Shown: positions 4,083 through 6,635 of the stretch, piece by piece | Layout: every line of letters starts with the position of its first letter | Numbering within the stretch: the stretch's first letter is position 1 | IMG/VR virus record: IMGVR_UViG_3300028388_001432 | Span: 1-31,420 of that record | Length of the DNA stretch: 31,420 nt | Direction: 5' to 3' (one strand) | From: a virus | The notes under the pieces: model-generated | Told to the model about the DNA's origin: nothing | Seen by the model: only the letters and a program-made list of their open reading frames with translations | Databases searched by the model: none | Made by a program: the position numbers and the translations under genes

Positions 4083-4250
4083 ATGAACACACCACTTGAA
4101 GAGCAGCGATGCAAAAACTGCCGCTACCTGTCTCCGTATACAGGCACTTGCCACCGCCATGCACCGCAACCAAGCCATAAAGAAGGCCGTGACGCATGGT
4201 GGCCAGGCGTTGCCGGTGATGACTGGTGCGGGGAGTGGGTGCAGCGATGA
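4083..4250 (+). CDS. Small Cys/His-rich protein (55 aa), putative zinc ribbon
   Basis: Its 55 residues contain CKNCRYL near the N-terminus, GTCHRHAP in the middle and GDDWCGEW at the end. This is the common phage mini-protein pattern with four Cys and nearby His that is likely to bind one zinc ion. WWPGVAGDDWCGEW is the typical tail. The role is unknown; such proteins often sit next to recombination genes. The stop overlaps the exonuclease start (ATGA at 4247-4250), so expression is probably coupled. Confidence 0.75.
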   Translation: MNTPLEEQRCKNCRYLSPYTGTCHRHAPQPSHKEGRDAWWPGVAGDDWCGEWVQR

Positions 4251-5011
4251 TCATCACCAATGAGGAGTATCACGCTGACCCTGCCGTCAGCGCCAGCCAT
4301 CTGCACATGGTGGCAAAGTCTCCGTATCACTACTGGGCGCGATACCTGAATCCCGATCGTCAGCTGGTGAAACCCACCGCTGCGATGCTGTTTGGCACGT
4401 TGGTCCACACCGCTGTGCTCGAACCAGATGAGCTGCGCAATCGCTATGACCTAGCGCCAGATCGCCGCACCAAAGCCGGTAAGGAGTTGGCTGCTGACAT
4501 GGAAGCCAAAGGCATCACGCCTGTGAGCGCTGCCGACATGGATGCAGCACTGGCCATGGCTGCTGCTGTCCGCAGCCATCAAGCCGCTGCAGAGCTGCTG
4601 CGTGATGGCCAAGCGGAGCGGTCATTCTGGTGGGATGATGCTGATACCGGGATGCGTTGCAAATGCCGCCCGGATTGGCTCAATGGCGACTGGACGGTGG
4701 TTGATCTCAAAACCACCACCGACGTATCACCTGCTGGCTTCGCCAAATCCTGCGCTGCCTTCCGCTACCATGTTCAAGCCAGCCATTACCTAGCTGGTCT
4801 GCCGGCTGAACGGTTTATCTTCATTGCAGTGGAGAAGACCTATCCGTATGCCGTTGGTGTGTATCAGCTCGACGCTGATGCCATGCAACACGGCAATGAG
4901 CTGCGCAAGCAGAACATGCGGATGATTGCTGATTGCCGCGCCATCAACGAATGGCCTGGTTACAGCAACTCCATCGATGTTTGCCTATGCGTGTCAACGC
5001 ACTGGGCTTGA
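4247..5011 (+). CDS. RecE-like PD-(D/E)XK exonuclease, altered C-terminus
   Basis: A 254-residue nuclease of the exonuclease VIII/RecE type. It would resect double-stranded DNA 5' to 3' to give the 3' strand used by the Bet annealase next door. Visible marks are SASHLHMVAKSPYHYWARY (residues 16-34), FGTLVHTAVLEP (49-60), KCRPDWL with the active-site Asp (139-145), VVDLKTTTD with Asp-X-Lys (151-159) and YHVQASHYLAG (174-184). ATG 4247 overlaps the previous stop; the upstream GTG at 4226 is less likely. After EWPGYSNSI the last residues (DVCLCVSTHWA) do not look like the usual end. They are read out of frame through Bet-coding DNA, which points to a deletion at the junction. Confidence 0.9.
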   Translation: MIITNEEYHADPAVSASHLHMVAKSPYHYWARYLNPDRQLVKPTAAMLFGTLVHTAVLEPDELRNRYDLAPDRRTKAGKELAADMEAKGITPVSAADMDAALAMAAAVRSHQAAAELLRDGQAERSFWWDDADTGMRCKCRPDWLNGDWTVVDLKTTTDVSPAGFAKSCAAFRYHVQASHYLAGLPAERFIFIAVEKTYPYAVGVYQLDADAMQHGNELRKQNMRMIADCRAINEWPGYSNSIDVCLCVSTHWA

Positions 5012-6635
5012 TCCGTTCAGCAAACAGATCTACGCCATCAAGCGTGGCGGCAAGATGACCATCCAGGCCGGCATCGATGGTCTGCGCAGCATCGCCGAAC
5101 GCACCGGCCAGCTCGACGGTTCTGAGACGTTTTGGTGCGGCGAAGATGGCGAATGGAAAGACGTTTGGCTTGGCAGCAAGCCACCTGCCGCAGCTAAGAC
5201 CATCATTCACCGCAAAGGCAGCCAGCATCCGTTCGTTGGTGTTGCGCGGTACGCGGATTACAACGCCGGCCAGGGGCTGTGGAACAAGATGGGTGCCGCG
5301 ATGATCGCCAAATGCTACACTCCTGACACAGAGATTCTCACGGATCACGGATTTGTCCGTTTCCCTGATGTCACCAAAGACATGAGGATCCTTCAAGTCA
5401 CAGATTCTGGGCTTGAACCGGTGGACGCGACTCCATTTGCGCAGTCCTATTCTGGCCCAATGATCAAGTGGGCGTCAAAGCGAGGTGGCGGAATTGATTT
5501 TTGCGTGACTCCCAATCACGACATGCTGCTTTGCTCTGGAGAAGTAATTGAGGCTAGTGATCTTTTTGATAGAACGACTCAGCGCTCTCAAGATCGCATT
5601 CCGCTCACCGCATCTTTCGCCAAAGAAGATGCTCCTTATAGCAACACAGCAATCAAACTTGCTGCAGCCTATCTCGCTGATGGATCTGATTACAACAACG
5701 CAGGATTCAAAATCTCCGTTTCACGGGACAGAAAAATCGAGAAACTAAAATCTATTGGTGGCTTTTATAGGTCATCTATTCGCGAATGTGCTGGCGACAC
5801 GGCTAGATCCTCAAGTGGTCGAGTAATCACTACTAAATCAAACAAAATCGAGTATTTTTACGAGTGGAGCGCTATTGAGGAGATTGTCGGTCCTTCTAAA
5901 AAAATATCTGCTGAAACAGTTCTATCTTTGTCTCAACGACAAGCTAGGTTGCTGGTTGACACTTGGATGTTTTTTGATGGACACGAACAGCGCAATGGAG
6001 TTCGGCGAGTCAGCATGGCGCGTGAAACACACGCATCTATTTTTGAGATCGCAGCAGTTCAAGCTGGCTACTCAATTTCGGAACGCCGGCAAACAACATC
6101 CGACATCGGATCTTGCTGGAATTTCACGCTGACATCAAAAGAGGATGTCCGCGTCCGGCTGCGATGGGACGGCCCATCTAAATCGTCGGTTGGTCTTGAG
6201 ATTCAAGACTCAAATCCATCCGGCGCTGTTTGGTGTGTCACCGTGCCCACCCATGTCATCGTGACTCGGCGACATGGCATGTCCTGGATTGGCCGCCAGT
6301 GCTCCGAAGCGCTCGCATTGCGTAAAGCGTTCCCGGCTGATCTGTCCGGTGTCTATGGCTCTGAGGAGATGGAGCAAGCCGAGGATGTCCAGGCTGTCAC
6401 CGTCACGGCTGAACCAGCACCGGCAGCACCGGCAGGCGACGAGAAGGTGTTCAATGCCGGCAAGGCTGCTATCGCCAAAGTCATGAGCGTCAATCAACTC
6501 AAGGCGCTGCAGGAACGAATGGAAGCCCGCTCGGGTGAGCTGAGCGATGAGCAGATGACGCAACTGCTGGAGCTGCTGATGGCCAAAGAGAAGGAGCTGA
6601 GCGAGGTTGAAGAGGATCCATTTGCTGATGACTGA
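4977..6635 (+). CDS. bet: Bet/RecT-type single-strand annealing protein with intein, N-terminus missing
   Basis: A 552-residue precursor. Residues 1-112 and 442-552 together make a Bet-family single-strand annealing protein of 223 residues: YACQRTGLDPFSKQIYAIKR, then MTIQAGIDGLRSIAERTG, then the split motif AAMIAKC/SEALALRKAFPADLSG. It anneals DNA made single-stranded by the exonuclease upstream. Residues 113-441 are an intein. Bet proteins usually have about 45-55 residues before the segment that opens this protein (compare lambda Bet), so the N-terminal part appears lost. ATG 4977 is the first start within Bet-like sequence; the frame is open from 4926, but that part reads as shifted exonuclease code. 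After splicing, the Pro/Ala-rich linker and acidic tail (SEVEEDPFADD) remain. Confidence 0.85.
   Translation: MFAYACQRTGLDPFSKQIYAIKRGGKMTIQAGIDGLRSIAERTGQLDGSETFWCGEDGEWKDVWLGSKPPAAAKTIIHRKGSQHPFVGVARYADYNAGQGLWNKMGAAMIAKCYTPDTEILTDHGFVRFPDVTKDMRILQVTDSGLEPVDATPFAQSYSGPMIKWASKRGGGIDFCVTPNHDMLLCSGEVIEASDLFDRTTQRSQDRIPLTASFAKEDAPYSNTAIKLAAAYLADGSDYNNAGFKISVSRDRKIEKLKSIGGFYRSSIRECAGDTARSSSGRVITTKSNKIEYFYEWSAIEEIVGPSKKISAETVLSLSQRQARLLVDTWMFFDGHEQRNGVRRVSMARETHASIFEIAAVQAGYSISERRQTTSDIGSCWNFTLTSKEDVRVRLRWDGPSKSSVGLEIQDSNPSGAVWCVTVPTHVIVTRRHGMSWIGRQCSEALALRKAFPADLSGVYGSEEMEQAEDVQAVTVTAEPAPAAPAGDEKVFNAGKAAIAKVMSVNQLKALQERMEARSGELSDEQMTQLLELLMAKEKELSEVEEDPFADD
5313..6299 (+). other. Intein with LAGLIDADG endonuclease, inserted in Bet
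   Basis: An in-frame insertion of 329 residues between Lys-112 and Cys-442 of the Bet precursor. Intein numbering: Cys1 with CYTPDTEILTDHGF (block A, 1-14), TPNHDML (block B with T-x-x-H, 66-72), LAAAYLADG (first LAGLIDADG motif, 116-124), LLVDTWMFFDG (second, 213-223), and AVWCVTVPTHVIVTRR to WIGRQ (blocks F and G, 305-329), then extein Cys+1. It would cut itself out of the host protein and join the flanks. Its endonuclease would spread the element to empty bet genes, if still active. The C-terminal residue is Gln and the usual penultimate His is replaced. The DNA is clearly more A+T-rich than the flanking bet sequence, which suggests recent acquisition. Confidence 0.9.

Follow-up and report, generated by a model that had tools for sequence, protein, structure and literature searches.

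A probable LAGLIDADG intein at a fixed site in the RecT/Bet annealase gene of a cyanobacterial virus

The window analyzed here is the whole 31,420-nucleotide stretch of IMG/VR virus record IMGVR_UViG_3300028388_001432. Its RecT/Bet annealase gene very probably carries a full-length class 1 intein, comprising a Hint domain and a central two-motif LAGLIDADG endonuclease, at a site that is fixed in this protein family, and it is viewed most simply as a selfish, constitutively splicing element. An earlier note, made from the letters of the sequence, had proposed a LAGLIDADG intein in a Bet-family annealase. The proposal is supported by an allelic family at the same site, empty sites in related viruses, a Hint-plus-LAGLIDADG structural model, and conserved splicing and nuclease residues. 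On sequence comparisons and structural models, we consider the identity, borders, allelic family, empty sites, fold, catalytic residues, and horizontal spread of the element to be established. The element itself is of the ordinary LAGLIDADG sort, apart from its uncommon C-terminal residue, and a search of an open-access library turned up no account of an intein in a RecT/Bet protein. A mycobacteriophage survey lists other host proteins (PMC5050341).

The annealase gene and its insert

The window is a 31.4-kb virus contig, termed cyanobacterial here, that is kin to Synechococcus phage S-H1. Both share the gene order exo, bet, ssb, thyX, with matching stretches of 79 to 92% DNA identity. The open reading frame (ORF) at 4926 to 6635 (plus strand) encodes a RecT/Bet annealase, in agreement with the earlier note; it matches PF03837 (RecT; E 9.8e-23) and phrog_2780 (E 2.3e-46). 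The PF03837 match begins at profile position 26, and TIGR01913 gives the N-truncated, intein-interrupted ORF 63 bits against a cut-off of 77 bits. No stop codon occurs anywhere inside the ORF, including the frames of the intein and the C-extein. Upstream of exo, positions 1220 to 1597 hold an ORF resembling RusA-like or Holliday junction resolvase-like proteins (phrog_93, phrog_5702), whose homologous stretch in S-H1 is annotated as hypothetical.

Table 1. Positions of the annealase, intein, and neighboring features in the window
Feature	Position	Strand	Basis
RecE-like (DUF3799/PDDEXK) exonuclease ORF	4226..5011	+	PF12684, E 1.5e-35; phrog_412 exonuclease VIII, E 1.2e-89; comparison with S-H1 exo
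Deletion junction, 150 bp relative to S-H1 and L014, with 2-bp microhomology GA	4976..4977	.	blastn coordinates
N-extein, residual Bet/RecT (MFAYACQ...MIAK)	4977..5312	+	PF03837; phrog_2780; 92% DNA identity to S-H1
LAGLIDADG intein, 329 aa, C1 to Q329	5313..6299	+	AlphaFold2 model; PDB fold matches; 24-member allelic family
Cys1, predicted splicing nucleophile, in block A CYTPDTEILT (residues 1-10)	5313..5315 (Cys1)	+	invariant, 24/24
Block B TPNHD, residues 66-70 (Thr66, His69)	5508..5522	+	His69 invariant; Thr66 in at least 90%
LAGLIDADG motif 1 LAAAYLADG, residues 116-124 (Asp123)	5658..5684	+	Asp123 in at least 90%; Gly124 invariant
LAGLIDADG motif 2 VDTWMFFDG, residues 215-223 (Asp222)	5955..5981	+	Asp222 and Gly223 invariant
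Block F VWCVTVPTH, residues 306-314 (Cys308 at F:4, His314)	6228..6254	+	Cys308 invariant; His314 common to Gln-terminal alleles
Block G GRQ, residues 327-329; C-terminal Gln329, penultimate Arg	6291..6299	+	sequence
C-extein, CSEALALRKAFP... (Cys+1) to stop	6300..6635	+	homologous to S-H1 Bet from residue 144 onward

The insert measures exactly 987 bp, or 329 in-frame residues, and splits MIAK/CSEALALRKAFP between Lys and Cys, with Cys (codon 6300 to 6302) as the +1 residue; both the coordinates and the K/C position proposed earlier are exact. When the insert is removed, the window reads MIAKCSEALALRKAFP, the sequence at the empty site of S-H1 Bet. At the DNA level, the S-H1 empty site is GCCAAA/TGCAGCGAAGCG. 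The 12 bases 5' of the insertion site are the same in the window, S-H1, and the intact relative L014, and the flanking exteins share 92% and 79% DNA identity with S-H1. A comparison with Bet homologs lacking the insert, which the earlier note had suggested as a check, found the site empty in S-H1 and in 80/80 of the closest IMG/VR relatives, each of which aligns unbroken across it. The motif MIAKCSEALALR was counted 76 times among the relatives, the rest being one-residue variants. The insert is indeed more A+T-rich than its host gene, as had been remarked (GC content of 48.4% versus 58.7% for the extein; GC3 of 44% versus 67%). However, about 5.5% of the 987-nt windows across the contig are equally low in GC, so composition alone is weak evidence.

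A 150-bp deletion in this record

The annealase identity stood, but the window copy of the protein is N-terminally truncated. Relative to S-H1 and L014, 150 bp are missing, removing the C terminus of exo (EPLSLPKWA...) and the first 31 residues of Bet, among them the start codon of bet, which overlaps the stop codon of exo. Past the scar, the exo frame continues into an out-of-frame tail (DVCLCVSTHWA), and Bet loses its first helix and part of its second. The remaining starts for bet are a TTG at 4926, inside exo, and an ATG at 4977 with no evident ribosome-binding site. A natural exo-Bet frameshift fusion was considered and rejected, as exo and bet are distinct and complete in both S-H1 and L014, and the Bet N terminus is retained in all 80 relatives.

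The deletion could stem from faulty assembly or represent a true lesion. If real, it would have inactivated both exo and bet, leaving the intein to persist without function in this phage, a reading that we take seriously while leaning slightly against it. It draws on the observation that 0/81 relatives (S-H1 included) carry the deletion and 81/81 keep the Bet N terminus, and on the parts that are hit, namely the exonuclease tail at its C terminus together with the first helix of Bet and part of its second. On the other side, the intein and C-extein frames are fully open and all key residues are retained. Moreover, the evidence comes from a single metagenome contig, in which a chimera and a real deletion are indistinguishable, and the 4976/4977 junction was found in no other IMG/VR contig. 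Judging from the sequence, if the deletion is genuine and not an artifact of assembly, the annealase of this record is probably nonfunctional, whether spliced or not. Because the Bet N terminus is deleted in the record, the window copy is unsuitable as a functional model, and for the same reason there is possibly no selection for splicing in it. The identification of the intein is unaffected by the deletion.

Intein motifs and predicted fold

Blocks A and B, the two LAGLIDADG motifs, and the block F/G end are each located where the first reading of the sequence had placed them (Table 1), and Cys+1 occurs in all aligned members of the allelic family. An AlphaFold2 model built from the 24-member intein alignment has a pLDDT of 94.6 and a pTM of 0.92. 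In fold searches (Foldseek, VIA-align), its whole chain matches homing-endonuclease inteins, with TliVMA at Z 19.1 (287 residues) and PI-SceI and PI-PfuI at Z about 17 and Z 16.9, respectively, over about 285 residues. Hint-only matches, including mini-inteins and the Hedgehog Hint domain, score lower (Z 12 to 16).

These relatives were found by fold search only, as a PDB sequence search with the intein profile gave no match. Pfam matched 0/24 family members. TIGR01445 reaches E 0.012 on the window intein, under its cut-off, and 4/24 members at E<0.01. Automatic annotation is therefore likely to miss this family. The lack of a Pfam intein domain would also suit a non-splicing in-frame insertion or endonuclease domain fusion, in which Bet would be active while still carrying the additional domain. 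We regard such a fusion as very improbable, given the Hint fold, the conservation of Cys1, the block B His, the block F Cys, and Cys+1 in all members, and the exact agreement of the insert ends with the empty site. In addition, a permanent domain of 329 residues would be hard to fit in a DNA-contacting helix (see below).

An allelic family that moves between annealase genes

A search with the insert alone retrieved six viral loci with a full-length homolog, at 34 to 45% identity in the best segment; all six encode a RecT/Bet protein with the insert at the identical K/C position. A profile search extended the family to 24 copies including the window, representing about 20 distinct viral or prophage alleles. 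Some of these come from bacterial sequences, as prophages or contigs: a Burkholderiales isolate, a Panacagrimonas metagenome-assembled genome (MAG), and a Zavarzinia MAG. All 24 are inserted at K/C, nearly all preceding C(A/S/T/C)E(A/S). The insert is hence not a chance feature, since a homologous insert lies at the same K/C in 23 other viral or bacterial loci. Of the records with an intein, L167, L094, L110, and L095 were compared with PF03837, and all four exceed its cut-off. No allelic RecT/Bet intein from an isolated phage or plasmid was among the matches listed. Two DNA pattern matches, L173 and L174, were found not to be inteins. In the Zavarzinia MAG contig (L165, 3465 to 3530), the C-extein is lost past C+1 (CSYPDRRE, stop) near the contig end, a possible truncation or chimera.

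The phylogenies of inteins and exteins disagree. In the intein tree, the window pairs with L094 (99/97), and L095 comes next (92/91). Its partner in the extein tree is S-H1, a very long branch there carries L095 together with L118, and several intein-bearing hosts belong to RecT subfamilies very distant from that of the window. The extein data reject a grouping of the window, L094, L095, and S-H1 (AU test, p 5e-53), and the intein data reject the extein grouping of L095, L118, L111, and L116 (p 4e-4); the pair L095 and L118 alone is compatible with the intein data (p 0.35). Horizontal transfer of the intein among annealase genes is the best account of this conflict between the sequence trees. 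One insertion site has been colonized across very divergent annealase subfamilies, unflagged by standard domain libraries.

A C-terminal glutamine

The window intein ends in Arg-Gln instead of the usual C-terminal Asn with penultimate His by which class 1 inteins are recognized. Inteins that end in Gln splice by the same mechanism, with Gln undergoing the cyclization; two Pol II inteins do so slowly, and the RNR intein of Chilo iridescent virus does so efficiently (PMC4031507). Splicing inteins are known that have Gln or Asp as the last residue or that lack the penultimate His (PMC4031507), so the Arg-Gln end is compatible with intein membership.

The Gln terminus is not unique to the window. 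Among the alleles, L094 ends in TGQ and L110 in SGQ, all others ending in Asn as CGN or CHN, and Gln also terminates inteins in epimerase (L168/L169) and terminase-like (L185/L187) genes and in L119. The epimerase case comes from Trichodesmium MAGs, at 1098 to 2105 of L168 and 1035 to 2042 of L169, where the host protein resembles NAD-dependent epimerases (assigned by eye). Gln-terminated inteins carry the block F His in 5/6 cases (window codons 6252 to 6254 and 6297 to 6299; L094, L110, L168, and L185), and most Asn-terminated inteins have Gly there. Counted by eye with one row per host gene, the association falls short of significance (p about 0.10), and in these sequences it serves as a lead only. 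A strict pairing of Gln with His and of Asn with Gly was rejected, as inteins with both His and Asn were found by a deliberate search and in P1201 ThyX. Natural Gln/Asn allele pairs in one host protein could be used to study the slow step of splicing.

The insertion site and its possible consequences

The insertion site was mapped on a model of the intact L014 Bet (pLDDT 69, moderate), aligned to lambda Red-beta (7ujl) at Z 10.7, with residues 5 to 158 on 3 to 168; the alignment with RecT (7ub2) gives Z 7.1. A PDB sequence search with Bet alone ranked TAL-effector repeats above Red-beta, which was judged spurious. Residue matching was read from the alignment ranges. Toward its C-terminal end the alignment is offset by 10, so that W133 corresponds to W143, R151 to R161, and the insertion between K143 and C144 to the boundary between H153 and K154 of Red-beta. 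Red-beta bonds its template strand through R128, W143, H153, K154, and R161 (PMC9512822). The model thereby places the insertion in a DNA-contacting helix, at the equivalent of Red-beta 153/154. As this site is the H153/K154 template-strand contact, the precursor should be annealing-incompetent until spliced; that the unspliced protein should be unable to anneal DNA follows from this model.

As judged from knowledge of the family, translation would yield a precursor from which the Hint domain excises itself, rejoining the annealase. Splicing would begin with an N-S acyl shift at Cys1 and proceed through transfer to Cys+1, cyclization of Gln329, and an S-N shift, releasing uninterrupted Bet and the free intein. 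The penultimate Arg in block G counts against this reading, as does the C-terminal Gln, a residue that slows splicing in some of the inteins studied (PMC4031507). In mixed infections, the free intein would cut intein-less bet alleles, and the cut gene would be repaired from the intein-bearing copy; the disagreement of the intein and extein trees lends such homing indirect support. A location in the DNA-contacting helix would also make imprecise loss of the intein costly.

The earlier note had suggested that recombination could depend on splicing conditions. The location in the DNA-contacting helix would suit such a conditional switch, in which single-stranded DNA (ssDNA) or another infection signal triggers splicing and hence annealase activity, by analogy with Pyrococcus horikoshii RadA, whose splicing is sped up by its ssDNA substrate (PMC5790916). 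The slowing of splicing that Gln termini can cause would fit such a switch (PMC4031507). We nevertheless hold it to be unlikely, since the homing endonuclease is kept, the scattered allelic distribution is that expected of an unregulated selfish element, and insertion at conserved sites is general among inteins (PMC2814812). It is likewise improbable that this is an annealase-specialized mobile intein family that parasitizes a possible homing-repair enzyme, with splicing (slowed by Gln in some alleles) timing the annealase to ssDNA. A site in a DNA-contacting helix would permit a direct test of whether splicing can turn on a phage recombination protein, as shown for archaeal RadA.

Relation to known inteins

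TliVMA (7qss/7qsu), PI-SceI (1vde), and PI-PfuI (1dq3) likewise have a LAGLIDADG endonuclease set into a Hint domain and align end to end over residues 1 to 329 (Z 17 to 19). They differ in their hosts (VMA-type ATPase and others), share 11 to 16% identity with the window intein, and are larger, at 366 to 454 residues. The Chilo iridescent virus RNR and Pyrococcus abyssi Pol II inteins, in other hosts, also end in Gln and splice experimentally (PMC4031507). RecA and RadA inteins also reside in recombination proteins, and RadA splicing responds to ssDNA (PMC5790916), but these hosts are unrelated ATPase recombinases, in contrast to the RecT/Bet-superfamily annealases described here. With this family, RecT/Bet annealases, which are behind recombineering, join the proteins in which inteins have been seen.

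Phage inteins with the pattern VxC.TVP..(H/G)...RR.G...GN in ThyX (P1201), NrdA, NAMPT, DNA polymerase, portal, and nucleotidyltransferase proteins are of the same type and give full-length tblastn matches to the window intein at 25 to 27% identity. They differ in host gene and insertion site, and those read end in Asn. Two further loci hold several inteins of this type: the ORF at 5704 to 8166 of L008, probably a ribonucleotide reductase small subunit (by eye), contains two or more, and a 2227-aa ORF in L186 has three block A motifs.
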